A stretch of DNA of 64,000 bases from NCBI GenBank assembly GCA_944392985.1, contig CALXYL010000002.1, positions 1 to 64,000 of the forward strand. The letters run 5' to 3'. The notes beneath the pieces are model-generated. The model worked only from the letters and a program-made list of their open reading frames with translations, searched no databases and was not told where the DNA came from. This document shows, piece after piece, positions 11,509-39,682 of the stretch. The position numbers were made by a program, and so were the translations under genes. This DNA comes from an uncultured Spirochaetaceae bacterium. Lineage in GTDB: Bacteria > Spirochaetota > Spirochaetia > Sphaerochaetales > Sphaerochaetaceae. How positions within the stretch are numbered: position 1 is the first letter of the stretch; every line of letters starts with the position of its first letter.

Positions 11509-12492
11509 ACCTCTTGTGCTTTCACTTTCCAGGATGGGAATCGGGACAATGCCCTGCTCTTCCCTGCTTCCAGAGAGGAAGGAGATCAGATGGCGCGCGG
11601 AGAGCGATCCAAGCTCAAGCCTCCTGTTCTCCCATGCCGTCCATTCCCCATGCGTTCCCGGCCAGTCATCCTCAAGCACAGCGCCGAAGATACCGTGTCC
11701 AGGGTATATTCCCCTCTCCTGGAATATAGGGGTGAAGAGATCAAGGATGAAGAACCTGTCGAATATGACAGCACCTGCCGAGATCACGGAAGTGGCATCA
11801 GAGGGAGTGACTGAGTCGCTTATCGGGATATCGACGACAGTGATTGACCGCCGCTTGCATGCAGCATGCAGATAAGCGCTCTTATCCTCAGATGGCTCTG
11901 CTGCTGAAAGGCTTGATGAGACGTATGCAATCCTGTCAAAACGCCTTGAAAGGATCTCCACGAGGCTGTCGACAGCTTCCTCATATCCAAACGTGACGCA
12001 GTGCACAGGGCGTCCATGTCCGATTTCCCTTCTGCCTACGAACACCAGCGGATAATCCTGCTTCATAAGCGACACGATATGCTCATCATCCCTCATGACA
12101 CCGATCATGATTGCCCCGGAAGCGAGGCGGATACGGGAGCTCCGGGACTTGTCCTGCCCCCAGTTATTGAGGATCAGGATGTCATATCCCTCCCTTTCCG
12201 CCTCCTGCTGTATGCCAGCGAAGAAGAGGTAGTATTCGCTTCTCGGATCGGAAGGGAAGATGTTCTCATAGGTAAAGACAGCGATGATATGGTTGTCATC
12301 ACCGGTCTTGAGATGCTGGGCTGCTGCATTGGGAACGTATCCAAGGGAGGACGCCGCGCGCAGCACGACGCGCCTCCGTGAATCACTGACCCTTATGCTC
12401 TGCCCCGCCTTCCCGCTCAGGACTGCAGAGGCAGTGGCAACGGAGACCCCGGCCTTTGAGGCAACATCGGAGAGTGTGACCCGCCTATTCAA
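11503..12492 (-). CDS. LacI-family transcriptional regulator
   Basis: 329 residues: N-terminal LacI helix-turn-helix (TLSDVASKAGVSVATASAVL) and hinge helix (SLGYVPNAAAQHL), then a periplasmic-binding-protein-like sugar sensor domain. It is the last gene of the minus-strand sugar operon and overlaps the FAD oxidoreductase by 8 bases, so it probably controls its own operon. The perfect palindrome at 16871-16888 next to the operon promoter is the likely operator. Its inducer is unknown. It converges with the SPL-like gene, and their stops overlap. Confidence 0.92.
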   Translation of the reverse strand: MNRRVTLSDVASKAGVSVATASAVLSGKAGQSIRVSDSRRRVVLRAASSLGYVPNAAAQHLKTGDDNHIIAVFTYENIFPSDPRSEYYLFFAGIQQEAEREGYDILILNNWGQDKSRSSRIRLASGAIMIGVMRDDEHIVSLMKQDYPLVFVGRREIGHGRPVHCVTFGYEEAVDSLVEILSRRFDRIAYVSSSLSAAEPSEDKSAYLHAACKRRSITVVDIPISDSVTPSDATSVISAGAVIFDRFFILDLFTPIFQERGIYPGHGIFGAVLEDDWPGTHGEWTAWENRRLELGSLSARHLISFLSGSREEQGIVPIPILESESTRGL

Positions 12493-13840
12493 CTATCGCA
12501 CCATCCTTCCGAAGGATGTCACGCAGCGCATCGGTATCGACATCAAGCGGGGATATGCCGCTCTTTGAGGCTATCGCGGCTGCCGTGCCCGCCGCCTGCC
12601 CTGTTGCAGTGCAGCATGGGCTGACACGGAGCGATGCGTGCGCCTCGAAGGTGCAGGAGATATCGCGCCCGGCGGCCATGATGTTCCCGACTGTGCTGTT
12701 TATCAGGCACCTGTAGGGAATCGAATAGTAAGCGCCGGAACGAAGGAACGTCGTCTTCGTCTCCGCACCATCGGAATGTATGTCGATCGGATAACCGCAG
12801 CAGGCGATCCCGTCGCTGAACTTCGTCTCGGAAAGGATATCCTCAGCGGTGATGGAATAGACACCGGACATACGTCCAGAGCTGCGGACACCGATCTTTG
12901 GACCGGAAGTGAGCAGCAGCGCATTCTCGAATCCCGGGATATGCTTCCTCAAAAAGCCGTACATCTCCCATACCTGACGCCTTCCCTCAGTCTCCGCCGC
13001 GGAGATATCAAAGGGATTGAGGGGATCCAGGCGGGGAACACGCGTCATGTTGACTATGACCTCATCGGGATTGTTTGTCTCGAAGCAGAGCACTATATCC
13101 CTGTCGATATCCAGCTCACCTGATTCAATCCCCTTCTTCATTATGTCCTGGAAGCCGGAGAACGAGAGGCGGACAGCCTTCTTCTCCAGTCCCTTCTCAT
13201 GAGGAGCGAGGAATGGGAAGATCTCGACATGCTCCTCCATGATGGAGCGGATGCAGTTGATATCCACACCTGAGAGCTTGAAGTTCATCGTCATCGGCTG
13301 ATTCACCCCATCTCCCTTCCTGCCGGATTCAACGGGAACGGAAGCGCACTTCAGGAGAACAGCATCCCCTGTCGCATCAATGAACACCTTGCCCTTGACT
13401 GTTATGGATGAACCAAGGGATGAGACTGTGACGGAGCGGGCAGTACCGTCGATGACATCAGCAGAGACGATCTTCGCATGATAGAGTATCTCCGCACCGC
13501 TCTCCAGCACCATCAGCTCAAGCTCCCTCTTCATGCCTTCGGCATCGAATGGGGTCACAGTATAGGTATAGCCGGTACTGTCAACCGTATGCCCAGGGGA
13601 GAGCCCCTTTGACTTGAGCCTGGCAATAAGCTCTTCCCCAAGCCCCTTTATGACCTGCTCATCCCCTGCATGGAATGTCATCATCGGTCCTGTTCCGCAG
13701 AGCGTCAAGGAACCGCCGAGGAAGCCTGATTCCTCTAGGATGAGGGTTTTCGCACCATGTCTGGCAGCTGCAGTCGCGGCAAGCGATCCTGCGATCCCAC
13801 CACCTGCGACCACTACTTCATAATCAAGCTCGCTTTTCAT
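12485..13840 (-). CDS. FAD-dependent oxidoreductase
   Basis: 451 residues with an N-terminal Rossmann dinucleotide motif (VVVAGGGIAGSLAATAAARHG followed by acidic LEE), a GDATGDA-like FAD loop (FIDATGDAVLLKCAS), and a C-terminal block with NIMAAGRDIS and ASLRVSPCCTATGQAAG. This is the FAD_oxidored (PF12831) type that often lies in carbohydrate operons, where it probably oxidises or reduces a sugar-derived substrate. The substrate cannot be told from sequence. It sits between the ABC permease and the LacI regulator in one operon. Confidence 0.85.
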   Translation of the reverse strand: MKSELDYEVVVAGGGIAGSLAATAAARHGAKTLILEESGFLGGSLTLCGTGPMMTFHAGDEQVIKGLGEELIARLKSKGLSPGHTVDSTGYTYTVTPFDAEGMKRELELMVLESGAEILYHAKIVSADVIDGTARSVTVSSLGSSITVKGKVFIDATGDAVLLKCASVPVESGRKGDGVNQPMTMNFKLSGVDINCIRSIMEEHVEIFPFLAPHEKGLEKKAVRLSFSGFQDIMKKGIESGELDIDRDIVLCFETNNPDEVIVNMTRVPRLDPLNPFDISAAETEGRRQVWEMYGFLRKHIPGFENALLLTSGPKIGVRSSGRMSGVYSITAEDILSETKFSDGIACCGYPIDIHSDGAETKTTFLRSGAYYSIPYRCLINSTVGNIMAAGRDISCTFEAHASLRVSPCCTATGQAAGTAAAIASKSGISPLDVDTDALRDILRKDGAIVE

Positions 13841-13849
13841 CTTCCCTCC

Positions 13850-14680
13850 TTATTTCATGCCCGATGTGACCATCGCATTCGAGATCTTGTTCTGGAATAT
13901 CAGATAGAAGATCATGACAGGAATGACGGAAAGCGTCGTTGCTGCAAGCTGCAGGTTCCACTGTGGCAATCCATAGGTGTCATTGAAGTTCGAAAGGGAT
14001 AGCGGCAGCGTGAACTTGCTCAGGCTTGAGATGAATACAAGCGGCTCAAGGTACATGTTCCATACCGAGAGGAATGCAAGGATCGCCGCGGATGAAAGCA
14101 CAGGCACCGAGATCGGAAGCATAATGCGGAAGAAGATACCGGCAGGACGCAGTCCATCAAGGCGCGCCGCCTCCTCAAGCTCCTTCGGCACGGTGATGAA
14201 GTGCTGGCGCAGCATGAATGCGGAGAAAGCACCCTGCGAGCAGAAGATCGGTATGAGGATAAGCGGCACAAGCGAATCGTTGGCGCCTATCCTGTTCATC
14301 ATGAAGTACATCGGCACGATCGTAACCTCAATCGGCATCATCAGCGCCGTAAGCAGCAGGATGAAAAGCGATGAGCGTCCGGGGAAGCGGAGACGTGCGA
14401 AGGCATATCCCGACAGAGCGGATATAAGGACGTTGCCTGCCGTACCGAGAAGGGCGACAAGAAGCGTGTTCATATAATGCCTTGCGAACGGCTGCACGCG
14501 GAATATCTCTATATAGTTCTCCCACATCCACGACTTCGGCAGCAGCGTGGGCTTGTCGAATATCTCGTTTATGTTATTCAGTGAATTCGTGATCATCCAC
14601 CAGAATGGATAGATGAATACGATTACGATAAGAGCCACCACTATGTAGTAGATGACATTCTTTGCGGTTCTACTCCTCAT
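13850..14680 (-). CDS. Sugar ABC transporter permease, MalG type
   Basis: 276 residues with six predicted transmembrane segments and the inner-membrane permease EAA loop (ELEEAARLDGLRPAGIFFRIMLP), which docks with the ATPase. The N-terminal FIYPFWWMITNSL and C-terminal MFYLIFQNKISNAMVTSGMK match the CUT1 family. It overlaps the MalF-type partner by 11 bases. No ATPase gene is in the operon, so a shared MsmK/UgpC-type ATPase from elsewhere is expected. Confidence 0.93.
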   Translation of the reverse strand: MRSRTAKNVIYYIVVALIVIVFIYPFWWMITNSLNNINEIFDKPTLLPKSWMWENYIEIFRVQPFARHYMNTLLVALLGTAGNVLISALSGYAFARLRFPGRSSLFILLLTALMMPIEVTIVPMYFMMNRIGANDSLVPLILIPIFCSQGAFSAFMLRQHFITVPKELEEAARLDGLRPAGIFFRIMLPISVPVLSSAAILAFLSVWNMYLEPLVFISSLSKFTLPLSLSNFNDTYGLPQWNLQLAATTLSVIPVMIFYLIFQNKISNAMVTSGMK

Positions 14681-15569
14681 AATACGAAGCCCTCTTCCTA
14701 AGTGACCACTGGATGATCGTAAGCACCAGGACTATAGCGAACAGCACCACCGCAACCGACGATGCGTACCCGATATTGAACGTCTTGAAAGCCTGATGGT
14801 AGATGTAGTACACGAGCACCATCGTCGATCCTTCAGGACCGCCATCTGTCATCAGCTTGATCGTGTCGAATACCCTCATCGATCCGATGACAGTAACGAT
14901 CATGACCATGAGTATGGATGGCATCAGCAGAGGCAGCTTTATCTTCCAGAAGAGCACCGGCTTCGTCGCGCCGTCGATGCGCCCTGCCTCAAGCACATCC
15001 TGGGGAAGATTCATAACTGCCCCCATGAAGATGAGGACATTCATGCCAAGGTTCTTCAGGACCCTGGAGATGACTACAGAGAGCATCGCCCATCCCTTCT
15101 CATGCAGCCAGTTCGGCCCCTCTATACCGATGAACGACAGGATATAATTGAGAGGGCCTGCGTCGCCGCCCTGGAAGAGGTACTTGAATACGATTGCCCA
15201 GGCGACGCCGGATGTGATCACAGGAAGGAATATAACGCTCCTGACGATCTTCGTTCCCGCAGCGTTTGCCCCAAGATAGAGAGCAAGCGCCAGCGAGAGC
15301 ACAAGGTTAAGCGGGACGACCCCCAGGGAGAACACGATCGTATTCTTCAGCGTGAGGAAGAAAAGATCGTCATTCACCAGGGTTTCGTAGTTGTCCAGTC
15401 CAGTGAATCCCATATTGCCGAAGAGGAGGTTACGGGATTCAAAGGAATAGACGAATACCATTACAAGAGGAACCAGGACAAGGATTATGAATCCAAGCAT
15501 CTGAGGCAGTATGAAGAGATATCCTGTCACTGCCTCCCCTCTTGCGAGCTTTGATTGTCTTGAGGCCAT
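14670..15569 (-). CDS. Sugar ABC transporter permease, MalF type
   Basis: 299 residues with six predicted membrane helices starting with GYLFILPQMLGFIILVLVP, typical of CUT1 family permeases. The EAA loop reads DVLEAGRIDGATKPVLFWKI. It forms the membrane channel with the MalG-type permease next to it. Its start lies 14 bases after the binding-protein stop, with a GGAGGA-type ribosome site. Confidence 0.93.
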   Translation of the reverse strand: MASRQSKLARGEAVTGYLFILPQMLGFIILVLVPLVMVFVYSFESRNLLFGNMGFTGLDNYETLVNDDLFFLTLKNTIVFSLGVVPLNLVLSLALALYLGANAAGTKIVRSVIFLPVITSGVAWAIVFKYLFQGGDAGPLNYILSFIGIEGPNWLHEKGWAMLSVVISRVLKNLGMNVLIFMGAVMNLPQDVLEAGRIDGATKPVLFWKIKLPLLMPSILMVMIVTVIGSMRVFDTIKLMTDGGPEGSTMVLVYYIYHQAFKTFNIGYASSVAVVLFAIVLVLTIIQWSLRKRASYYEE

Positions 15570-15583
15570 GGTTCCTCCTTCAG

Positions 15584-16855
15584 TTATTTGATGTAGTTGG
15601 CGTAAACGCCGGCTACAGCATCGAGAACTGCCTGAACATCAGCATCCGGTGTCCAGAGCCTGTCCCATACGATCCTTGACTCGACTTCGATCTGCGGATA
15701 CATCACATGCGACGGAAGAACCCTTCCTGTCTCGATGGACGCTGCAACCGCTGTTGACATCTGATCTGCTGTGAGCAGTGGCTGGGATGTAAGGAAGTCA
15801 GGAGACTCAAGAACGGTCTTTCTTGCTGGCGGCCAGATTCCTGCCATGCGTGCAACGCACTCCTCGTTGGTCATATACGCAACGAGCTTCTTCGCGATAT
15901 CAACATTGTCGCCCTTGCTGAAAGCACCGATTCCCGCCTGTCCGATAATAGGCACATCACCCATCGGTCCTGCTGGCATCGGGGCGATTCCCCATGCGAA
16001 ATCAGCATCGGCAAGGTTGGAGACCCTGGATACCTGGGCAGCTGTCATAGCAGCTGATCCTGCAAAGAAATTGGACTGATCCCCAGGAGGAACGACGGAG
16101 CCATCATCATAGACCATGTCATGGAAGAGCTGGACTGCTGCAGCGGATTCCGGCGTGTTGATGAGGATCTGGCCATCGCTTGTCCATGCATCTCCGCCAT
16201 AGGAGCGGATGATCGGGCAGAGGTTGTGGAGGATGCGGACATCGTATCCACCGCCATCAACAGTCTGGTAACCCCATACGCCTGTTGCGTCCTTGATCGC
16301 CTTGCTTGCCTCGCGGAATGTCTCCCAGGTCCAGTTGCCTTCAGCAACGAGCTGATCAGGTGTCGCGATTCCAGCCTGGGCGAAAAGATCCGCATTGTAG
16401 AGCATGAAGAACGGGCTTGTTGAGAACGGGACTGCGTATGTCACGCCATCAGCCTGCCAGAGCTCCATTGCCTTTGCGGAGAAATCCGAGGGATCATACT
16501 CTGCAAGCTCAGCATCAAGCGGTGCAAGAAGGCCGGACTGGATGAATGCAGGAGCGGAAGTCTCAAGCACCCAGAATACGTCCGGAGCCTCAGATCCCTG
16601 AAGCTCAAGGGAGAGCTTCGTGTTGTATTCGCCGAAATCGATTGACTCGAACTCTGCCACGATCTCTATTCCTTCCTTTGCTGCGAACTCATCAACAAAG
16701 CTGGAAAGAAGTGCTATCTGGTCAGGATTCGCTGTCCATGTGGCGATCTTGATCTCTACGGGCCCTGATGCCCCCCCCTGTTCAGCAGGGGCCTGCGCCA
16801 TTGCGGGGATTGCGAGGACTGCAAGTGCCAGAAGCACTGCCATCATTCTTCTCAT
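15584..16855 (-). CDS. Extracellular solute-binding protein (sugar ABC importer)
   Basis: 423 residues with a cleavable signal peptide (basic MRRMM, hydrophobic core, likely cleavage after AMA at 20). The body is a family 1 solute-binding protein (APDVFWVLETS, ALPFSTSPF-like AVPFSTSPFFMLYNADLF, WTWETFREASKAI). There is no lipobox, so it is probably periplasmic and free. A run of eight G bases encodes Gln-Gly-Gly right after the signal peptide (residues 26-28), a possible slippage site. It is the first gene after the palindromic operator. Confidence 0.93.
   Translation of the reverse strand: MRRMMAVLLALAVLAIPAMAQAPAEQGGASGPVEIKIATWTANPDQIALLSSFVDEFAAKEGIEIVAEFESIDFGEYNTKLSLELQGSEAPDVFWVLETSAPAFIQSGLLAPLDAELAEYDPSDFSAKAMELWQADGVTYAVPFSTSPFFMLYNADLFAQAGIATPDQLVAEGNWTWETFREASKAIKDATGVWGYQTVDGGGYDVRILHNLCPIIRSYGGDAWTSDGQILINTPESAAAVQLFHDMVYDDGSVVPPGDQSNFFAGSAAMTAAQVSRVSNLADADFAWGIAPMPAGPMGDVPIIGQAGIGAFSKGDNVDIAKKLVAYMTNEECVARMAGIWPPARKTVLESPDFLTSQPLLTADQMSTAVAASIETGRVLPSHVMYPQIEVESRIVWDRLWTPDADVQAVLDAVAGVYANYIK
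16771..16778 (-). repeat. G8 homopolymer inside binding-protein gene
   Basis: Eight consecutive G (C on the plus strand) cover the codons just after the signal peptide. Gain or loss of one base would frameshift the mature protein. Confidence 0.9.
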
Positions 16856-16870
16856 AATCTCCTCCTTTTG

Positions 16871-16888
16871 TGATTAATCGATTAATCA
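16871..16888. promoter_or_regulatory. LacI-type operator palindrome
   Basis: TGATTAATCGATTAATCA is an 18-bp perfect palindrome with central CG, the symmetry typical of LacI/GalR-family operators. It lies just before the ribosome site of the binding-protein gene, between it and the AGE epimerase gene, where a bound repressor would block the operon. The LacI-family gene at the end of the same operon is the obvious candidate to bind it. Confidence 0.7.
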
Positions 16889-16966
16889 TGATTCTATCAC
16901 TCTTTCCAGAGACTGCAAGAAAAATATCACGAAAAGGAAATCCTCCCCGGAGGGAGGACTGGATGC

Positions 16967-18145
16967 TCAGCTCAGGCTGTCGATTATCTCTATTGCCTTC
17001 ATATACATCCTCGGAATATGGAACGGACCTTTGTAGAGATTGCCCTTCAGCGGAGTAGAGAGAGTGCCATCGCGGTGGAAGTAGCCGTACCACTCACCGT
17101 ATTCCCTATCGAGGAAATGCTCTGATATGTAGCTATCGACAGCACGGAAGCGATCAAGGTACTCATCCTTGCCGGTGATGGAATACGCCATCAAGCTGGC
17201 AATCACAGCCTCACACTGAGGCCACCAGAACTTCATATCCTGATGATACTCCGAGAGGCTCTTGCCAAGGACATCACGGTACTGGATGATGCCACCGCCA
17301 TACTCGCTGTCCCATCCGCATTCCCACATCCAGTCGAGAACGGAGAGACCTGTGTCGATATAATCCTGACGGCCCCGCCTGATGCCTTCATTCATTATGA
17401 ACCACGAACCTTCGATCGCATGGCCAGGATTGACGATCCTCCCCTCGAAATGGTCAGGAAGAAACTCCCCTTCGGGCCCAACTGTCTCCAGCACCGTCTT
17501 CATCTCAGGATGGATGAAGTATCTGATGCAATCGCCTATCTCCCTGTCGATGGCCTCATCGAGCTCTGCGCTCATCCCAGGCAGTACGTTCCTGAGCTCA
17601 GAGATGACATTGATCATGATCATTGAATCGGCATGGCCACGCATCGGGCGCACGGATGGATCAAACTTAGGCACGAGGATCCCAGGCGTATTGCGGGCTT
17701 TCATTGCGCTCCTGTATACCGCAAGGGCCTTCTCCTTGTATGCTTCATCACCGGAAGCCGCGGCGTAAGCTGCATAGCCTATTGCGGCGAAGGTCTCGCT
17801 GAAGAAGTACCTGATGCGCTTGATCACCGGTCGTCCATCAGCAGTGACACGGAAGAACATCCTGCCATCGCTGTCAAAGCAATGCCTGTCGATGAATGAG
17901 ACGATCATCCTCGCCGCCTCAAGGTACTCAGGGCGTCCGAACCGCGTATAAGCTGTCGAGAACACCCAGAGCGCCCTGCCCTGGAACCAGACGGACTTAT
18001 CTGTCTCGATAAGGCTTCCGTCCCTGTCAAGACATGTATAGATGCCGCCATTCACCCTATCCAATCCATGCTCGAGCCAGAACGGGAGGATATTCCCCGT
18101 CAGCTCATTGAAGTACCTTTCCCTGACTTGTCGAAGTGTTTCCAT
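16967..18145 (-). CDS. AGE-family epimerase/isomerase
   Basis: 392 residues of the (alpha/alpha)6-barrel N-acylglucosamine 2-epimerase / cellobiose 2-epimerase family. Recognisable blocks are NGGIYTCLDRDG, WFQGRALWVFSTAY, RHFDCDG-like RHCFDSDGRMFF, NPGHAIEGSWF and FWWPQCEAV; the two His of the GHAIE and later helix are expected to do proton transfer. Substrate (GlcNAc, mannose, cellobiose or mannobiose) cannot be told. It precedes the sugar importer, suggesting that it converts the imported sugar. Start at 18145 (METLRQVR) is supported by a -10 box 6 nt upstream. Confidence 0.88.
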   Translation of the reverse strand: METLRQVRERYFNELTGNILPFWLEHGLDRVNGGIYTCLDRDGSLIETDKSVWFQGRALWVFSTAYTRFGRPEYLEAARMIVSFIDRHCFDSDGRMFFRVTADGRPVIKRIRYFFSETFAAIGYAAYAAASGDEAYKEKALAVYRSAMKARNTPGILVPKFDPSVRPMRGHADSMIMINVISELRNVLPGMSAELDEAIDREIGDCIRYFIHPEMKTVLETVGPEGEFLPDHFEGRIVNPGHAIEGSWFIMNEGIRRGRQDYIDTGLSVLDWMWECGWDSEYGGGIIQYRDVLGKSLSEYHQDMKFWWPQCEAVIASLMAYSITGKDEYLDRFRAVDSYISEHFLDREYGEWYGYFHRDGTLSTPLKGNLYKGPFHIPRMYMKAIEIIDSLS

Positions 18146-29693: not shown

Positions 29694-30866
29694 TCACTCC
29701 TCTCCGGAGAAGAGCTTCCCAGCAAGGGCCCTGATTGCCGTGAAGCGGTGATCAGCGGCCATTAGCGCCCAGCTCTTGGTACGCTTGAATACGATGCCAT
29801 CATCAGTAAGCTCAGTTGAATAGAATCCCAGCCCGATACGTGGATTGTCATAGCTCATGAAACCGTTCCCGACAAGCAGGAGCCTGGACTGACCTGGCTC
29901 GATCGCGATGTTCGCCGTCCCCTTCGGGCCGGTATTGAAGCCAAGTGTGACGGCGCGTATCTCCGGAGTAGCCCCATCGAAGAGAGCCCACGGGGCATCC
30001 ATGCGTCCGAGATAGTTCTCAGCTATATCGACATTGGGAAGGGCAAGAATCTCTCCATCCTCCGCATGAGGGGTGAATGTGAAGTACAGCAGCTGGCATT
30101 TAGGATTATTCACAGCCGCCCATCCAATTGCATTCCTGTCAGGTATCTTCCCGATAAGATAATCATAGGTGCCTGTTGGAGGAGGCACATAGCCGGCATC
30201 GGCTGTTCCACCACGCACAAGAGGTGCATGCTTCAGCTCGTCAAAGACAGCACCGGGAATGAATCTGTTGACGCCGGATTCGCGCCTTGACAGGGCATAG
30301 GCTGTCCAATAGCGCGCATTCGATGAGATCAATGAGCCGGTCTCAAGAAGAGGAGCGGAAAGCATGCTGTGCCAGGAAGCGGAGCCAGTAAGCATCTCGC
30401 TGCCGGTATTGGTCACCCTGATTGCGCTGTAGAGCACAGGATGGCCGGGAAGGACCATGTCGACCTTCTCCAGCCGGAAGCGGTTGCCCTCCTCCCTGCT
30501 CTTCATCTCCGAAAGCCGCCAGACTCCCCCATGCTCCTCCTCAGTGCCATAGCGCCTGAGCGTCCAGTACGTATTCACTGAATTGATATGCTCGCTTGAG
30601 AAGGACGGGAATGTGAAATAGCAGCCGCCCGCCTGATAAAGAGCCGCACTGCCCTGCCACCATTCGCTGTTCTCGTCGGATATAACGCCGGCACCCGTTC
30701 CGCGGAAATACGGAAGGGCAAGCGCGTTGATCCTGGCGCCGGAAAGAGACCTTGATGTAAGCTCGACGACAACCTCCCCCTGGTCCTCGATCAAGGCAGA
30801 GAATGTACCGTTGGACATGTATGTCGCGTAACGGCCTTCCCATAAGGAAAGCCTCCTTATATCCAT
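29694..30866 (-). CDS. Carbohydrate-related protein, mutarotase-like (unassigned)
   Basis: 390 residues with no signal peptide. The beta-rich sequence with LPYFRGTGAGVI, ENSEWWQGSA and SASWHSMLSAPLL suggests a beta-supersandwich like those of galactose mutarotases or hydrolase domains, but no catalytic signature is clear. It is divergent from an alpha-galactosidase-like gene and sits in a glycan block. Start at 30866 (MDIRRLSLWEG) is chosen for the GGAGGAG ribosome site. The family is unrecognised. Confidence 0.5.
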   Translation of the reverse strand: MDIRRLSLWEGRYATYMSNGTFSALIEDQGEVVVELTSRSLSGARINALALPYFRGTGAGVISDENSEWWQGSAALYQAGGCYFTFPSFSSEHINSVNTYWTLRRYGTEEEHGGVWRLSEMKSREEGNRFRLEKVDMVLPGHPVLYSAIRVTNTGSEMLTGSASWHSMLSAPLLETGSLISSNARYWTAYALSRRESGVNRFIPGAVFDELKHAPLVRGGTADAGYVPPPTGTYDYLIGKIPDRNAIGWAAVNNPKCQLLYFTFTPHAEDGEILALPNVDIAENYLGRMDAPWALFDGATPEIRAVTLGFNTGPKGTANIAIEPGQSRLLLVGNGFMSYDNPRIGLGFYSTELTDDGIVFKRTKSWALMAADHRFTAIRALAGKLFSGEE

Positions 30867-30938
30867 AGCTCCTCCAGTTAACGACAAACAGAGCAATCTG
30901 CGTTAGAATCATTGTAGAGCATAATCCAGAGGTATTCC

Positions 30939-33194
30939 ATGATAGAAGCATTATCGAAAAGCATATTCCACCTCTCCACCGATAGCACCAGCTACATCAT
31001 ACGCATCCTCGAGACAGGCCATGCGGAGCATATATACTACGGCAGGAAGCTCAGGGATGCAGCCGCCTCTGTGCAGGCGCTGGGAGAGAAGCGCTATGCG
31101 CGTCCTGGCATGGGAACATATACGGACAGGAACTTCACGACACTTGTACTGGACGATGCGATGCTTGAGTTCTCCGCCGAGGGACGCGGCGACTACCGCA
31201 CGCCTCTTGTCGCAGTATCGCTCGGGGATGATGGGGAACGCACCCTCGACCTGCGCTATACAGGAAACAGCATCACCAGTGGAGTCAAGCCATTCGAGAC
31301 GCTTGCACTCCCACAGGCAAAGGATCCGTATGGAGAGGCGGATACGCTGACCCTTTCCTTCAGCGATTCCATGAGGAAGATCGATCTGGAGCTCATCTAC
31401 ACAGTATTCCCATCCACTGACACGATCGTAAGAAGAAGTGTCATCCGCAACCGGTCAGGAAAGAGCATCAGAGTGCGCTCAGCGGCTTCTGCACAGCTCG
31501 ACTTCCGCCTCACCGGCATGGAGATGATCACACTCTCAGGAACATGGGGACGCGAGCTCGAGCTCAGAAAAAAGGCGGTAAAGAGCGGCACTGAGATGAT
31601 CGAAAGCCGCGTCCTATCATCCTCCGCAGAGGCAAATCCTGGCTTCATGCTCTCCGCTCCCGATGGTTCATGCTATGCGATGAATCTCATATATTCCGGC
31701 CCCCACAGGGCATCCGTTTCCGTCACGGAGCATGGGATGACACATGTCGTATGGGGTATCAATCCCGATATGTTCACCTGGGTGCTGGAGAACAATGAGG
31801 CTTTTGAATCGCCGGAAGCCGTGATGACATACAGCCCCGAAGGCCCCGAGGATGCAGGAGAGAGGGAGAAACGCTTCATCATGACTTCGATCCTCCGCTC
31901 CTCATGGAAGGACAGGATGCGCCCCATCATGCTAGACACCTGGGAGACGATGCGCTATGCAGCAACGGAGAACAGGATCGAGGATGCCGCAAAAGGCGCA
32001 CTCGCAATGGGCTGTGAAGGCATCCTGATCGGAGATGGCTGGTTCGGCGCAAGGGGGAATGACCGCACAAGCCTTGGGGACTGGTATGCAAACACACAGA
32101 AATTCCCCTCCGGACTGAGGGAGCTTTCCGACTCCATACACCGCATGGGTCTACTCTTCGGACTGTGGTTTGAACCGGAAGCGGTCAGCATACGCTCAAT
32201 GCTCTACCGTGAGCATCCGGACTGGATCATAGGACGGAATGCCGAGACAAACGCGGAAGGACGCCATGAAGCCCTGCTGGATATAACACGAAGCGACGTA
32301 AGCGAATGGATAATCTCCTCGATCGTGCATCTTGCGGAGCTTGTGCGCATCGACTTCATCCGCTGGGACATCAGCAGGCACTACTCCGACATCTACGCAA
32401 AAGGAGGCTCACGGGACTACGGCATGTACCCCCACCGCTATGCTTCCGCCCTCTACGGCATACTGTCGGAAATCGGCAGGAGATGCCCTGACCTATACAT
32501 CGAGATGGGAGGAGGCTGCCGCTTTGATCTAGGAACGATGTGCGTCTCCTCAACGATCATCCCAAGCCAGCTTACCGATCCGATAGAAAGAGCAAGGATA
32601 ATCAGATGCGCCTCCCTGATGTATCCGCAGGCAGTCCTCTCGACGACGGTCGCCCCCTCCCCCGACACCTCAACAAGAAGGATCGTCGACAGGGAGACAC
32701 GTTTCAACATCGCATCATTCGGAGTCCTCTCCTATTCAATGGATCCTTCATCCTTCTCCCGCAGCGAGATGAAGGCATACCAGGAGCAGACGGAATTCTA
32801 CAAATCATTCAGGCTTCTGCTGCAGACAGGCAGAATGAGGACGATAGAGGATGACGACCGCCTCATCTGGTCGGTTTCCGATGAGGACAGATCCACGATC
32901 CTCGTGCTTTACCTGCAGAAGCGGATCAGGCCGAATACCACTGCGGAGAAGCTCATCGTGCCTGACGCGAATGAAAGCTATGACTACAGGGTATTCCCCA
33001 GAAGCCATGCGCTTACTGAGAAGGAATCATATGCTTTCCCGGATTCGGAAAGCTATATCATACCAGGTGATGCGCTCAAATGGGGCGGCATCTCACTGGT
33101 GGAACAGCTGTCAGGAATCGGCAGCCATGAAGGAATGAGGATGATGGGCGACTATTCATCCAGGCTCTACATCATCAGGAGGGTTGAGAAATGA
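30939..33194 (+). CDS. GH36-family alpha-galactosidase-like protein, acid/base replaced
   Basis: 751 residues in GH36 order: N-terminal beta-supersandwich (1-320), (beta/alpha)8 barrel (about 325-650) with GILIGDGWFGAR, GLWFEPEAVS and the nucleophile motif IRWDISR (Asp477), then a C-terminal sandwich. The usual CSGGGGRFD loop is MGGGCRFD, and the acid/base motif SDNTDA is SQLTDP, which places Gln544 where Asp should be; the spacing to the nucleophile (67) is as in known enzymes. It may need an outside acid, act on activated donors, or have another specificity. No signal peptide, so it should act on imported sugar. It overlaps gpsA. Confidence 0.85.
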   Translation: MIEALSKSIFHLSTDSTSYIIRILETGHAEHIYYGRKLRDAAASVQALGEKRYARPGMGTYTDRNFTTLVLDDAMLEFSAEGRGDYRTPLVAVSLGDDGERTLDLRYTGNSITSGVKPFETLALPQAKDPYGEADTLTLSFSDSMRKIDLELIYTVFPSTDTIVRRSVIRNRSGKSIRVRSAASAQLDFRLTGMEMITLSGTWGRELELRKKAVKSGTEMIESRVLSSSAEANPGFMLSAPDGSCYAMNLIYSGPHRASVSVTEHGMTHVVWGINPDMFTWVLENNEAFESPEAVMTYSPEGPEDAGEREKRFIMTSILRSSWKDRMRPIMLDTWETMRYAATENRIEDAAKGALAMGCEGILIGDGWFGARGNDRTSLGDWYANTQKFPSGLRELSDSIHRMGLLFGLWFEPEAVSIRSMLYREHPDWIIGRNAETNAEGRHEALLDITRSDVSEWIISSIVHLAELVRIDFIRWDISRHYSDIYAKGGSRDYGMYPHRYASALYGILSEIGRRCPDLYIEMGGGCRFDLGTMCVSSTIIPSQLTDPIERARIIRCASLMYPQAVLSTTVAPSPDTSTRRIVDRETRFNIASFGVLSYSMDPSSFSRSEMKAYQEQTEFYKSFRLLLQTGRMRTIEDDDRLIWSVSDEDRSTILVLYLQKRIRPNTTAEKLIVPDANESYDYRVFPRSHALTEKESYAFPDSESYIIPGDALKWGGISLVEQLSGIGSHEGMRMMGDYSSRLYIIRRVEK

Positions 33195-34150
33195 ACAATA
33201 TCGTCATCGCAGGAGCAGGAACATTCGGAACAGCCGTCGCAGAACGACTGACCTGGAACATCAACAACAGGGTCACTCTCCACACGATAGAGACAGATGT
33301 GGAGAAGGAGATAAACGACAAGCACACGAACAGGAAATACTTCCCGACCCGCTTTCTCAACAGGTACCTGAGCGCCACATCATCCTTCTCCGTATTCCAG
33401 GAAGCCGATGTGATCATGCTTGTCATCCCATCCAAGGCGATAGTCCCGTTCTCCGAGGAGATCAGGAAGAACACCAGGAAGGAACCTCTGATCATCAATC
33501 TGGCAAAGGGAATGAGCGATGATGGCGCATTCATCACTGAAAACATCCCATTCAGCCGTACAGCAAGCATGAAAGGCCCATCCTTCGCCATCGAGACGAT
33601 AAACGGATTCCCCACCTCATTCACATTCGGGGGAAAGAAAGAGGATTACGACTACTTCAGGAAGAAAGTCCTTCCAGACACGCAGTTCTCTCTCGACTAC
33701 TCCAGCGATGTCAGGGCAGTCGAGCTGATGAGCATCCTGAAGAACATGTATGCAATAGCCATCGGCATCGTTTCCGGGAAATTCAACAGCCCGAATGTCG
33801 ACTTCCTTGTCTACACGAAGGCAGTGAATGAGATGCGCGGCCTTCTCAGGATATTCTCATGTGACGAGGAGACGATCTTCCGCTATTGCGGTATCGGGGA
33901 TCTCGGACTCACAGCCCTCAATGACCTCTCAAGGAACAGGACTCTGGGAATGCTCATCGGAAAGGGCTTCGGATATGATCCGAATTCCAAGTCATCCACT
34001 GTCGTCGAAGGATTGAGGACGGTGCGCCTGATCGGGGAGATCACACGGCAGAAAGGCGTCGCTGACGAGTTCCCACTTGTACAGGCACTCTATCGTCTGC
34101 TCTACGAGAACGATACGCTCAACAGCTATACACTCACCGTGCTCGGCTGA
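33191..34150 (+). CDS. gpsA: NAD(P)-dependent glycerol-3-phosphate dehydrogenase
   Basis: 319 residues: Rossmann motif IAGAGTFGTAVAERL, KGPSFAIE, the catalytic Lys block ELMSILKNMYAIAIGI and GIGDLGLTALNDLSRNR. It reduces dihydroxyacetone phosphate to sn-glycerol 3-phosphate for phospholipid synthesis. It overlaps the GH36 gene by 4 bases (ATGA), an odd neighbour for a lipid gene. It is slightly short at its C-terminus. Some divergence (TIETD instead of the usual dinucleotide segment) leaves room for a related substrate. Confidence 0.88.
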   Translation: MNNIVIAGAGTFGTAVAERLTWNINNRVTLHTIETDVEKEINDKHTNRKYFPTRFLNRYLSATSSFSVFQEADVIMLVIPSKAIVPFSEEIRKNTRKEPLIINLAKGMSDDGAFITENIPFSRTASMKGPSFAIETINGFPTSFTFGGKKEDYDYFRKKVLPDTQFSLDYSSDVRAVELMSILKNMYAIAIGIVSGKFNSPNVDFLVYTKAVNEMRGLLRIFSCDEETIFRYCGIGDLGLTALNDLSRNRTLGMLIGKGFGYDPNSKSSTVVEGLRTVRLIGEITRQKGVADEFPLVQALYRLLYENDTLNSYTLTVLG

Positions 34151-35878
34151 TCATAGGAAGGTCCGGCGTATATACATCAGATCCTCCATGATGAATGAAG
34201 GCTCGGCGCTGGAACGTATGAGAGGAATACCCTCCCGCACCAGGGATGCGATATGAGGATATGTCCTTGCCATGATGCCCTTTCCAAGCGCGGTGCTGTG
34301 ACCGTCAATGGAATCATTGAGGAGCAGTGCCGCGATCCGGGATCCAAGGGAGGAGAATATATCCTCGAAGATGGAAAAGGTATTCCGCCTCTCATCCGCC
34401 GCGGCGAATCCCGCTGGATCAAGAAGGATCGACAGGTCAGGAAGGCTGTTTATCATCTGCCAAACCTTCTGGATACGATCATCGCCGCATCCAGAGAAGG
34501 GATCGATTGCAATGCGGATACCGTTTCTGGATGCTTCAGGCATGATCGACGGGAAGATCCCAAGAAATGAATCAAGGCAGGATGTGCTGAATGATACCCC
34601 GACAACAGGCGCAGAAAGAAATGAAGCCGCCGCGATCGCAGCCCTGCATTCCTCTTCCATGTCCTCTTCTGTGACAGAGACGCCCAGAATGGAGATATCG
34701 AGACCGAGTGAGCGGATCCCGGCAAGACGGCGCTCGCTTATCGTGCGGTATCCAATGCAAAGAGGCATCGAGCGGGGTATATCAAGATAGACGGTATCGA
34801 CACCAAGAAGGCCAAGACGTTCCTTCAGCGTATCAGGGTCAAGGGGACCAAGCGCTTCTGCCGTGATGCCGATACTCATCCCTTCCCGGCTGCCCTGCCG
34901 TCGCTGGATGACCTTCGGTCTGGGAGGGAAAGCGGAAGGAACAAGCTCCTTCCTTTCGGGATAGATGGAATCGATCAGCCTCTCGCGATCCGCCGCTGCC
35001 ATCTTCCGGAACTCAGTCGGGCTGACCCTGCAGAATGAGTAGAACGTCCTGTTGAACTGGGAGGACGAGGAAAAGCCGCAGGCAAGTATCACATCATGTA
35101 TGCGGGCACCGGTATATGAGAGCATCTGCAGTGCCGAGCGTATCCTGACCCTCTGGACATAGCTGATGAATGGCATCCCGACTATCCTGGAGAACTGGTG
35201 CGAGAGATAATACGGAGAGATCGCGAAAGCTGAAGCGACGCCCTGAAGCGTCAGCGGAGAGGTATAGTTCTCCTTCACATACTCGGTTATCTTGTACATC
35301 TTCACATCCGAGCTCTCCACCCGCTCCTCCTTCTCATACTCATTCCTCCTTGCAAGGCGGGCGGTTTCCAGGAGGAACAGCATGAAAAGGGAATATATCT
35401 CTATCTGCCATCCGGATTTCATGGCCTTCGCCGCAGAAAAGAGATCATTGAGACGCGAGACTATCGAGGAAAGCGCCGATGGCGGCAGGCGGAGCACCGG
35501 ATTCCCTTCGGAGAAGAGCGCCTCGATCTTGGAGAACTGGTAATCAAGTCCAGGAACTGGCTGACCGGGCCTGAAGTTGATGATGATCCTGCGCTGGCTC
35601 TCCTTCTTCTTCGGGTATATCGACATATGCAGGAGCTGAGGCCCAAGGAAGAGGATATCCCCCTTGCTCAGGCTGATGTACCGCCCATCGACAAGATGGC
35701 CAGCTACCTCGTCAAGCGGGATGAAGATCTCGTAGAAATCATGGAAATGCTGGCTGCCCATATTCACGTCATAGCTCCGGCTGCCATAGTCAATCAGGAG
35801 AAATACAGGATCCTTGTCCCTGTTGAGCCTGATCCTGAAGCCATCCTCGAAATAGAGCGAATCCATCAAATCGAGCAT
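34151..35878 (-). CDS. AraC-family regulator fused to a xylose isomerase-like TIM barrel
   Basis: 575 residues with three parts. Residues 1-110 form a cupin-like sensor (QHFHDFYEIFIPL, SKGDILFLGPQLLHMSI). Residues 194-292 are the double helix-turn-helix AraC domain (LTLQGVASAFAISPYYLSHQFS, IHDVILACGFSSSSQFNRTF, VSPTEFRKM). Residues about 334-575 match the sugar phosphate isomerase/epimerase (AP endonuclease 2-like) barrel: ALGPLDPDTLKERLGLLGVDTVYLD, SIMPEASRNGIRIAIDPFSG, ILLDPAGFA, LLLNDSIDG. The barrel may be a ligand sensor or an enzyme. Start is supported by a -10 box 6 nt upstream. It probably controls the divergent 848-residue gene and MFS carrier. Confidence 0.85.
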   Translation of the reverse strand: MLDLMDSLYFEDGFRIRLNRDKDPVFLLIDYGSRSYDVNMGSQHFHDFYEIFIPLDEVAGHLVDGRYISLSKGDILFLGPQLLHMSIYPKKKESQRRIIINFRPGQPVPGLDYQFSKIEALFSEGNPVLRLPPSALSSIVSRLNDLFSAAKAMKSGWQIEIYSLFMLFLLETARLARRNEYEKEERVESSDVKMYKITEYVKENYTSPLTLQGVASAFAISPYYLSHQFSRIVGMPFISYVQRVRIRSALQMLSYTGARIHDVILACGFSSSSQFNRTFYSFCRVSPTEFRKMAAADRERLIDSIYPERKELVPSAFPPRPKVIQRRQGSREGMSIGITAEALGPLDPDTLKERLGLLGVDTVYLDIPRSMPLCIGYRTISERRLAGIRSLGLDISILGVSVTEEDMEEECRAAIAAASFLSAPVVGVSFSTSCLDSFLGIFPSIMPEASRNGIRIAIDPFSGCGDDRIQKVWQMINSLPDLSILLDPAGFAAADERRNTFSIFEDIFSSLGSRIAALLLNDSIDGHSTALGKGIMARTYPHIASLVREGIPLIRSSAEPSFIMEDLMYIRRTFL

Positions 35879-35890: not shown

Positions 35891-35979
35891 TAGCAAATTA
35901 CGCATTGCAGTGAAGGGAAAAGGACAATAATCATGTAGAATATGATGGTTACTGGTATATACTTCTCGCGGAGGGATGG

Positions 35980-38526
35980 ATGAACTGGCATATTTCAGAA
36001 CTTGAACATGGATATATCACGCGGTTTCTTATAACGGAGCCGAGGATGGAGGAAGTCACAGGTGAGCCTGTCGCGATCACGGAGGAGTCGAACGTCTGGA
36101 TCGGATCGACGGCAGCAGCCTCTCATGAGAACCCGCTGAAGGCCGGCTTCCTCGAGAAAGCCGTAGGAAACGGAATCGCCGCACCTGTATTCACAGATGC
36201 CCAGCCAGAAGGGAGCGCCGTGCTTATGGGGGACACTGTCAGCGTCCGCTACAGAGCACCATTCGGTGATCCTGTCATCGGAGCTTCCCTCTTCACCCCC
36301 ACGCCCCATTGGCTCAGCGTCGCTGCCTACATCGTCCTCAACGCAGCGAAGGAAGGGGATTACCGCTTCCTCCTCACTGTCGAGGGAGGCATGTCGATCT
36401 TCAGCGATGGCAAGGAGATATTCTCATTCAGGCCATACAAGCGCAATCAGGCAAGGGAGACGGAATGCATCCTGCACCTCAAGAAGGGTGACAATATCCT
36501 TGTCGTCGAGGCTGATGAGTTCTCCGAACGCGATACAGAGCTATCAGTGACATTCCTCCTTGAATCCGGGCCCGGCACCCTGCTGCAGAAGGTACCGATG
36601 GGAGAAAGGGACACAGAGAGCATCATGAAGATGGAAAGGGCGATGGAAACCCTCTCCTTCGACAGAAGCACGTTCACCGAAGGCCATGTCACGGCGACAA
36701 TGGAGAATCCCTTCCCCGGAAAGACGATATCAGTCCATATGATCGGCGCGACGGAGGAGAATGAAGCGCTTGGCATCAGGAAGGAAGCCATTGCAGTATT
36801 CCCCGATGGTTCATCAAAGGCGGATCTCGGGCCTGTGGAGGAGTTTCCAGTCGGTTTCCTGAGGATGAATGTATCTGTGGAGATCGAAGGTCTTGCAATA
36901 AGGACGGTGAGGACATTCGAGAACTTCCCATCCTCTTTCCAGGGGGATACCGCCACGGACATCGAGGACAGGCGTATGGAAGCCTGGCGCTTCCTCTCAC
37001 TCTACGGGGAAGGGAACGCGAACAGGGCTATGGCCCTTCTCTACATGGGCGGCGACAAGGATGAGATAGAGAGCATCCTACGCGCACAGCTGGATTTCAT
37101 CAACAGGCGCAGCGATTGCTCTGATTTCTATATCTCCTACTTCCCGTTCATGATCAGGCACTTCGGTTCTTCAGGACTGATCAGGAAGGAAACGCTCGAT
37201 GATATGGAGAAATGCCTTCTCTCCTTCAGGTACTGGCATGATGAGCCAGGCGATGATGCGATGTGGTTCTGGAGTGAGAACCATGCCCTGATGTTCCATG
37301 TATCGGAACTGATTGCAGGAGAGATGTTCCCTGACAGGATCTTCTCCAACAGCGGAATGACAGGACGGGAAAAGCAGAGGAAGGCGATCTCGATGCTCAG
37401 GCCATGGTTCGAGACATTCTTCAAGGATGGATTCACTGAGTGGAACAGCCCTCCCTACCTCCCCATCGATATCCTGGGCTTTGCATCGCTTTATGCACAG
37501 ACGGAGAACGAGGAGATGAGGGCTTTTGCTGAAAAGGCCCTTGAATATGTATTCCGCCTGCTCGCCATCACATCATATGAGGGCATCTTCAGCACAACAA
37601 GTGGAAGGACATACCTGAAGGAGCTGATGGGCAACTACTCCAACTGCCCATCGTTCATCAACTGGATCGGGTACGGAATCGGGAATGAATCCCATGCAGG
37701 AAAGGGTTCTGTGCCTGTGCTGATGAGCAATTACACGCCTTCTCCCGACAATCTCAGATACCACCGGATCAGCAAGGGCCATGCCCTGTTATGGAAATCG
37801 ACCCATGGCTACAATGGATACGCTGATGTGACGGTCTACAAGACATCGGGATACCTCCTTTCCGCGGCGAATGACTTCAATCCCGGTCGGCGGGGATTCC
37901 AGGAGGATGTGCTGCATGCCGTGCTTGGTGCAGAGGCACATGTATGGATAACACACCCCGGTGAGTTCGCCCTCTATGGCCAGGCGCGCCCATCATACTG
38001 GGCAGGAAGCGGAACCCTGCCGAGAGCGAATCAGTACAGAGGCTTTGCTTCCGCTATCTGGGAAGTCGCAGCAGAGCATCCCGTGGATTTCACCCACGCC
38101 TACTTCCCCACCTATGCCTTCAGAAGCTGCAGGATCGAGGATGGTTGGGCATTCGGATTGACGGAAAGAGGTGGAATGATTGCCATCACCGCTGCAAACG
38201 GGCTGGAGATGACAGAAACCGGGCCGAACTCGATGCGTGAGCTGACAAGTCCCGGAAAGAGGAACATCTGGATAATCAGATGCTCCGATGAATGGCTTGA
38301 GGGGAGCTTCGAGGCATTCATATCAAGGATCAGGGGAACACACCTCTCATACGATATGAACGCCCTCTCCTATTCATTCGAGGACGAAGAGTATGGCACT
38401 ATAGAGGCTGGATGGGACAGAAGCCTCAGCGTCTCAGGGAAAGAGGAGCAGTACAAGGGCTTCACCCCAGAGGGCACGCTCTGGGAAATTGAGCCCTCCA
38501 TCAGGGGGAACTCCAATGAAGAATAA
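35980..38526 (+). CDS. 848-residue orphan, polysaccharide-lyase-like architecture
   Basis: No signal peptide. N-terminal half (1-330) is beta-rich with two sandwich-like units (for example EGDYRFLLTVEGGMSIFSD, KKGDNILVVEADEFSE). The middle (about 335-600) is helical with aromatic blocks MWFWSENHALMFHVSELIAG and FKDGFTEWNSPPYLPIDILG; the SENHALMFH segment is like the (alpha/alpha) toroids of alginate or heparin lyases. The C-terminal part has many beta strands. I do not recognise a known family end to end. It lies opposite the AraC fusion and before an MFS carrier, and likely acts on an imported oligosaccharide. GGAGG ribosome site before ATG. Confidence 0.6.
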   Translation: MNWHISELEHGYITRFLITEPRMEEVTGEPVAITEESNVWIGSTAAASHENPLKAGFLEKAVGNGIAAPVFTDAQPEGSAVLMGDTVSVRYRAPFGDPVIGASLFTPTPHWLSVAAYIVLNAAKEGDYRFLLTVEGGMSIFSDGKEIFSFRPYKRNQARETECILHLKKGDNILVVEADEFSERDTELSVTFLLESGPGTLLQKVPMGERDTESIMKMERAMETLSFDRSTFTEGHVTATMENPFPGKTISVHMIGATEENEALGIRKEAIAVFPDGSSKADLGPVEEFPVGFLRMNVSVEIEGLAIRTVRTFENFPSSFQGDTATDIEDRRMEAWRFLSLYGEGNANRAMALLYMGGDKDEIESILRAQLDFINRRSDCSDFYISYFPFMIRHFGSSGLIRKETLDDMEKCLLSFRYWHDEPGDDAMWFWSENHALMFHVSELIAGEMFPDRIFSNSGMTGREKQRKAISMLRPWFETFFKDGFTEWNSPPYLPIDILGFASLYAQTENEEMRAFAEKALEYVFRLLAITSYEGIFSTTSGRTYLKELMGNYSNCPSFINWIGYGIGNESHAGKGSVPVLMSNYTPSPDNLRYHRISKGHALLWKSTHGYNGYADVTVYKTSGYLLSAANDFNPGRRGFQEDVLHAVLGAEAHVWITHPGEFALYGQARPSYWAGSGTLPRANQYRGFASAIWEVAAEHPVDFTHAYFPTYAFRSCRIEDGWAFGLTERGGMIAITAANGLEMTETGPNSMRELTSPGKRNIWIIRCSDEWLEGSFEAFISRIRGTHLSYDMNALSYSFEDEEYGTIEAGWDRSLSVSGKEEQYKGFTPEGTLWEIEPSIRGNSNEE

Positions 38527-39682
38527 GGGATTATACATCGTCTCAGCGTTGCTCATGGTGATACTCGGCGCAAGCGATGCCCTCCGCGGCATCTTCCAGC
38601 CTCTCTTCATCTCCGGCTTCGGATTCTCCGAATCGCAGATAGGACTCATCATATCGGCAAGCTATCTCGGCAATCTCACCTGCCTCCTCTTCGGAGGAAG
38701 GATCCTGGACAGGATCGGTAGAAAGAAGGCAATGGCCGCATTCATCGCGGCTCTTGCGGTTTCCGAAGTGCTTCTTCTTTTCGGACGCGCATACGCCCTC
38801 CTTCTCATCGGTTTCTTCCTTACGCTTGGAATCTCAACGCTGCTGAACACGACGATCAACCTCATCTCCGATTCATTCTCCGCGACGAAGGGCCTGCTTC
38901 TCCTGAACGTCCTCTTCTTCCTGCAGGGAATCGGAACATCGGGATCCCAGCTCATCCTGTCTAACTTCTCGTCAAGCCAAGCTGTCTGGAATGGGGTTCT
39001 CATCGGAATGGCGGTGCTCCTTATCCCCCTCGCCATCGCTGTGCTCCGCCTGAAGGAGGAGAAGCTGGAGCAGGGAAGCAGGACCGAGACAGCCGGCACC
39101 GCTTCCACTGTGGAAAAGACGGAGACTGGAATGATCGCGCTCATAGCGCTCACCCTCGGTCTTTACCTCATTGCTGAGCATGGAATCACGAACTACATAA
39201 TCATGTATGGCAGGGAGCATCTTGGGATTGCTGAAAGCGAAGCGGGATTCGCCCTCTCCCTCTACTCAGCAGGCATCATGATCGGCAGGCTTGTCCTTGG
39301 CACCATCGTCGACCGCATCGGAGCGGAGAGGATGATCTTCGTATCGCTTCTTGTGGCGACGGCTGTCACTGCATTGTCATTCATCTTCGGTATCCTCACC
39401 CTGCTCTTCATCGTTGGCTTTGCCGTCTCCATCGTCTATCCGACAACGGTATCACTTGTGAAGAAGCACGCGCCTCTTTCACTGGGAGCACAGGCGACAA
39501 CAGTCGCTGTCAGCGCGGCGAGCATCCTAGATGTCATATTCAACGCAGCTTTCGGAAGCGCTACAGAGGCATTCGGCTATGGAAAAGCAATGCCAGCGCT
39601 CTGTGTTGCGCTGGCACTCTCCACCATACTGATGGTATTCATCATTCCACGAGGGAATAAACAGCACGCACGGAATCGGTGA
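38516..39682 (+). CDS. MFS transporter
   Basis: 388 residues with 12 predicted transmembrane segments in two six-helix halves, separated by a charged loop (about 185-215). The loop 2-3 motif GGRILDRIGRKKAM is the MFS signature, and GTIVDRIGAERMI repeats it in the second half. A sugar or oligosaccharide/H+ symporter is likely, from its place next to the orphan glycan-active gene. Start at 38516 overlaps that gene by 11 bases. Its end overlaps the convergent SIMPL gene by 41 bases. Confidence 0.88.
   Translation: MKNKGLYIVSALLMVILGASDALRGIFQPLFISGFGFSESQIGLIISASYLGNLTCLLFGGRILDRIGRKKAMAAFIAALAVSEVLLLFGRAYALLLIGFFLTLGISTLLNTTINLISDSFSATKGLLLLNVLFFLQGIGTSGSQLILSNFSSSQAVWNGVLIGMAVLLIPLAIAVLRLKEEKLEQGSRTETAGTASTVEKTETGMIALIALTLGLYLIAEHGITNYIIMYGREHLGIAESEAGFALSLYSAGIMIGRLVLGTIVDRIGAERMIFVSLLVATAVTALSFIFGILTLLFIVGFAVSIVYPTTVSLVKKHAPLSLGAQATTVAVSAASILDVIFNAAFGSATEAFGYGKAMPALCVALALSTILMVFIIPRGNKQHARNR

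Follow-up and report, generated by a model that had tools for sequence, protein, structure and literature searches.

A xylose-isomerase-like TIM barrel fused to an AraC-type regulator in Sphaerochaetaceae

The window analyzed here, that is, the whole 64,000-nucleotide stretch, comes from a gut spirochaete and contains a gene that joins a sugar-isomerase-like barrel to the C-terminus of an AraC-type regulator. Is this barrel a genuine part of the protein and, if so, does it act as an enzyme, as a sensor of a sugar, or in neither capacity? To answer, the gene, its relatives and its neighbors (Table 1) were compared at the levels of sequence, predicted structure and gene order.

Table 1 Features of the fused regulator gene, the intergenic region and the divergent operon
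Feature	Position in the window	Strand	Basis
AraC regulator fused to TIM barrel, 575 aa	34151..35878	(-)	ORF; full length kept in 17 other genomes
N-terminal cupin-type effector/dimerisation domain, residues 1-178	35345..35878	(-)	AraC_binding in relatives; fold; structural matches
AraC DNA-binding domain, residues 190-305	34964..35311	(-)	HTH_18; AraT match
Linker, residues 306-333, conserved 'PE..E..P..FPPR'	34880..34963	(-)	Low model confidence; alignment
Xylose-isomerase-like TIM barrel, residues 334-575	34154..34879	(-)	Pfam; profiles; AF2 model; alignments
Conserved block CAATAATCATGTAGAATAT, candidate operator	35925..35943	(+)	Phylogenetic footprint
Conserved TATACT region, candidate -10 box of divergent operon	35956..35964	(+)	Footprint; inference
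848-aa protein, putative polysaccharide lyase, likely regulation target	35980..38526	(+)	Fold match; synteny
MFS transporter, same operon	38516..39682	(+)	Pfam MFS_1 1e-32; last operon gene in relatives

Three domains in one reading frame

The reading frame begins with ATG and has no internal stops, and in each of the 17 other genomes of the family the fused frame is likewise intact and stop-free, which excludes a frameshift or an assembly artifact joining two genes. The identity of the regulatory part follows from its two domains. In the window protein, the Pfam families HTH_18 (residues 215-292, 1.8e-20, above the cut-off) and HTH_AraC (2.2e-10) were matched, and a double helix-turn-helix (HTH) of this type is present in all 19 aligned rows of fused proteins; this alignment (A1) represents 18 distinct proteins, since L009 and L042 are one protein from one genome. 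The DNA-binding domain also matches that of AraT structurally (26% identity, TMt 0.81). The N-terminal AraC_binding match of the window protein (E=0.015) lies below the Pfam cut-off, and the family was matched in 12 of the 19 rows. In the AF2 model, the same region forms a beta-rich fold followed by helices, and it matches the structures of RhaR, BgaR (in both cases the regulatory-domain fold) and ToxT. The window protein is thus an AraC/XylS family regulator by virtue of its C-terminal double HTH and its cupin-like effector domain. How the domains are arranged relative to one another cannot be read reliably from the model (pTM 0.47), in which the pLDDT drops to ~ 30 in the linker at residues 310-330.

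Another question is whether the C-terminal domain is a true barrel. Taken alone, the window protein matches AP_endonuc_2 at residues 434-547 with E=8e-4, below the curated Pfam cut-off; the family was matched in 17 of the 19 fused rows, with a best value of 5.6e-25. A phmmer search of the PDB with a single barrel gave no matches, whereas a profile of the barrels matched the solved structures of IolI and Art22, and profile-profile comparison (hhalign) aligned the barrels of the window clade with stand-alone barrels at 98.7% (E=3.6e-16). The AF2 model contains a complete barrel, predicted with good confidence, with eight beta/alpha units and strands in order from 336 to 555. Residues 333-575 of this model superimpose on Art22 with Z 24.3 (2.3 A over 224 residues) and on UlaE, an L-xylulose-5-P 3-epimerase, with Z 22.4. 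The profile scores of the relatives, the profile-profile comparison and the structure together rule out a spurious Pfam match, and residues 334-575 are a genuine TIM barrel of the xylose-isomerase-like (AP_endonuc_2) superfamily. The initial annotation, which had described a cupin domain, an AraC DNA-binding domain and such a barrel in a single protein, is therefore confirmed by the open frame, Pfam, the relatives and the structure, and its barrel assignment withstood profile comparison.

Distribution of the fusion and loss of the metal site

In an order-level sample of 139 genomes, the full-length fusion was found in 18, namely, that of the window, 15 more of its genus and two of a sister genus. 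Beyond the family, where the searches targeted orthologous fusions, none was found in a phylum-wide sample of 393 other Spirochaetota genomes or among 151 genomes of the Paenibacillus order, which yielded barrel-less forms of 290-380 aa only. The same AraC core without the barrel (~ 300-340 aa) occurs in Sphaerochaeta and Paenibacillus, and this wider distribution indicates that the barrel was probably added. In the tree of the AraC part, the fused proteins group together (100/99); one barrel-less paralogue, L078, falls inside the fused clade with weak support (83/26) on a long branch of 1.42, and a single fused clade was not rejected (p-AU 0.318). The position of L078 could reflect either loss of the barrel or misplacement of a long branch. 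In the tree of the barrels, every fused barrel lies on one side (100/100). The simplest history compatible with these trees would be one fusion event before the split between the window's genus and its sister genus.

Enzymes of this superfamily, for example IolI and UlaE, hold a divalent metal with four residues located where strands 5 to 8 end, namely Glu, Asp, His and Glu. The corresponding positions in the aligned barrels, assigned by motif after IolI and UlaE, carry the E-D-H-E quartet in all 12 stand-alone relatives and in both fused proteins of the sister genus (L051 and L052), which also keep the remaining active-site positions that were checked. The 16 fused proteins of the window's genus all have other residues at the His and at both Glu positions, while the Asp position is mostly retained. 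The His position has become Leu, Met, Phe or Arg, and the residue at the first Glu position differs among species, with a Q-D-R-x subgroup (L053-L055) set against the variable-D-L-A pattern of most others. The window protein has D459, D487, L519 and S556 where the stand-alone enzymes have E, D, H and E. The best reading of these alignments is that the barrel of the window's genus can no longer perform metal-dependent isomerization.

This bears directly on the suggestion, made when the locus was first annotated, that the barrel might be a catalytic output. Such a trigger enzyme would be bifunctional, a regulator that also acts on its own inducer and thereby depletes or makes it. It would be in keeping with the four ligands and the other checked positions retained in L051 and L052 and with the maintenance of the barrel in a single frame. 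However, the replacement of three ligands throughout the window's genus, variable between species at the first Glu, makes this reading improbable, and for the window protein itself catalytic output is disfavored on the loss of the predicted metal ligands.

Could the barrel instead be a functionless passenger in decay? Loss of the metal site and fast divergence would agree with this: the degenerate barrels sit on a long branch (0.99), and their identity of 38-47% is below that of the whole proteins within the genus. Nevertheless, stops and frameshifts are absent in all 18 genomes, the model predicts a full barrel with good confidence, and the motifs NTFS, GxGxMA and IR are invariant, so that decay appears highly improbable. 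The residues N499, T500, S502, F504, D522, G532, G534, M536, A537, I554 and R555 are invariant in fused proteins with and without the metal site, and the NTFS stretch and R555 are missing from the stand-alone relatives. The sharing of fused-specific residues by metal-intact and metal-lost barrels indicates that a function linked to the fusion and independent of the metal is being conserved.

The divergent operon and the intergenic region

In 18 of 18 genomes, the gene that faces the fused regulator in divergent orientation encodes a homologue of the 848-aa protein. The initial annotation had placed the regulator divergent from this frame and from an MFS carrier gene downstream of it, which the ORFs and Pfam show to be correct, and had proposed the pair as a likely regulon, a proposal that the strict synteny and the conserved intergenic block support at the level of sequence. 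The intergenic region is 101 bp long, and within it the block CAATAANCRTGTAGAATAT, ahead of TATACT, is kept across ten genomes, including the diverged L070-L072. The candidate operator has its only exact match in the window's genome here, with a chance expectation within the window of 0.04 even at 3 mismatches. For the direct-repeat operator binding and transcriptional control expected of an AraC/XylS regulator, this block is indirect evidence. One of three weaker matches in the genome (3 mismatches) falls in a second cluster (locus L143, G000:C18, ~ 12400-18100), where the gene for a paralogous ABC binding protein follows it at a distance of ~ 60 bp. This cluster comprises ABC transporter genes and an 808-aa paralogue of the 848-aa protein (31% identical). 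The presence of both a 3-mismatch operator copy and this paralogue in the L143 cluster points either to a shared regulator or to common ancestry.

Neither Pfam nor NCBIfam contains a family matched by the 848-aa protein, whose mean column identity among relatives is 77%. The fold looked for was the alpha/alpha toroid plus beta-sandwich of polysaccharide lyases. The AF2 model of the protein (pLDDT 73) weakly matches lyases of glycosaminoglycans (GAG), alginate and hyaluronate over residues 323-825 (Z 8-10, high rmsd), and the Foldseek result was also weak. In relatives, the operon continues past this gene with genes for a sugar ABC transporter and a GH88/105-type hydrolase (Pfam Glyco_hydro_88, 2e-89); some relatives also have GH38, and the MFS gene comes last. 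GH88/105 enzymes act on unsaturated uronides released by lyases. The weak fold likeness and the GH88/105 gene in the relatives' operon make a lyase role plausible, and the protein may plausibly be a candidate for a new polysaccharide lyase family. The neighbors point to the breakdown of uronate polymers, and the locus would be an operon for such polymers that may include a new lyase family. In the same genome, the stand-alone barrel gene is surrounded by GH28, KDPG/KHG aldolase and PfkB kinase genes, a galacturonate/pectin setting.

The window strain has lost from this operon the ABC transporter and GH88/105 genes that are kept by L073, L076 and L077; only the putative lyase and the MFS gene remain. 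The best matches to the ABC and GH88/105 genes elsewhere in the window's genome are paralogues (29% and 40% identical, respectively).

On the other side of the regulator, a glycerol-3-phosphate dehydrogenase-like gene (33191-34150) is convergent with it and abuts its end exactly. In most of the genus, this gene is conserved along with one for GH36 (30939-33194); it scores under the NCBIfam equivalog cut-offs and is perhaps not a true GpsA. A 400-aa protein with no Pfam matches (29697-30896) is conserved beside GH36 across the genus.

Role of the barrel and known systems

With moderate confidence, we favor the explanation that the window protein is the AraC regulator of a uronate-oligosaccharide operon with a fused barrel that, after the loss of its metal site, has been retained as a non-catalytic accessory module. 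As a one-component regulator, it would control the operon for an imported uronate-containing oligosaccharide, the switch itself being made up of the cupin and DNA-binding domains, as it is in barrel-less relatives located opposite a similar operon. The barrel would derive from a sugar-isomerase-like family related to the stand-alone enzymes of pectin/galacturonate clusters and would have joined the C-terminus of the regulator before the two genera split; the loss of the metal site would have come later, in the window's genus. It most likely binds a sugar-acid intermediate, holds the dimer, or both, and its effect would be to modulate DNA binding at the candidate intergenic operator. Of this, the fusion, the barrel fold, the synteny, the loss of the metal ligands and the retention of fused-specific residues are observed; a sensing role of the barrel would fit them and, like its ligand and the activation of the divergent operon, is inferred.

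The barrel-less relatives L058, L062, L064, L067 and L078 are also divergent from the same operon type, which indicates that basic regulation can do without the barrel; sensing could be confined to the N-terminal cupin domain. The barrel might then be a purely structural or dimerization element that binds no ligand, all sensing being left to the cupin. That barrel-less proteins regulate a similar operon agrees with this, as does the long branch of the degenerate barrels, and the residues conserved across fused proteins could form an interface. However, the superfamily pocket is where D522, the Asp that follows the lost His, and the GxG stretch are located, which suggests some pocket conservation, and we consider a purely structural barrel rather unlikely. 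The non-catalytic accessory module that we favor may also be part of an enzyme-to-sensor series, in which the site-intact fusion of the sister genus would be a possible inducer-processing trigger enzyme and the site-ablated fusion of the window's genus a pure sugar-acid sensor; this we regard as possible, if tentative. Such an enzyme-to-sensor origin is made directly testable by the natural pair of fusions with and without the metal site, for which the stand-alone enzymes and the barrel-less regulators serve as outgroups. If it holds, the steps from an enzyme to an allosteric input of an AraC regulator could be read and tested.

How does this architecture compare with known ones? With regulators of the AraC, RhaS/RhaR and MelR type, the window protein shares the N-terminal cupin-like domain, the C-terminal double HTH, the sugar operon and the divergent genes, but it adds a 240-residue TIM barrel after the DNA-binding domain. 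In Ada, Rob and Btr, an AraC-type HTH is followed by an extra C-terminal domain, which in Ada is an enzyme. These proteins thus resemble the window protein in layout, although their additional domains are methyltransferase, GyrI-like and solute-binding domains rather than a sugar-isomerase barrel. They also qualify the earlier statement that the DNA-binding domain is normally the last one in AraC proteins, which is a fair generalization with these exceptions. IolI, UlaE, D-tagatose 3-epimerase and Art22 share the fold of the whole barrel (Z 20-24) and profile similarity, whereas the window barrel is fused to a regulator and, in its genus, has lost the His and both Glu.

A further parallel is found in the SorC family, in which the effector domain shares homology with enzymes of the NagB/RpiA type (PMC11229326). 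SorC/DeoR repressors are likewise regulators with an effector domain homologous to sugar enzymes, but their DNA-binding domain is different, the enzyme fold is Rossmann-like and the enzyme-like domain is the sole sensor (PMC11229326). Enzyme-derived sensor domains and additional domains C-terminal to an AraC-type HTH are therefore already known. The literature searched contained no AraC protein carrying a sugar-isomerase barrel at its C-terminus, although domain databases may list the architecture; within that literature, the combination, in metal-intact and metal-lost forms, is new.

One minor observation concerns the barrel-less paralogue L078 (8034-8996, G040:C53). Its genome also has the fused form, and L078 faces, in divergent orientation, a lyase-like gene, an ABC transporter and GH88/105 of its own.
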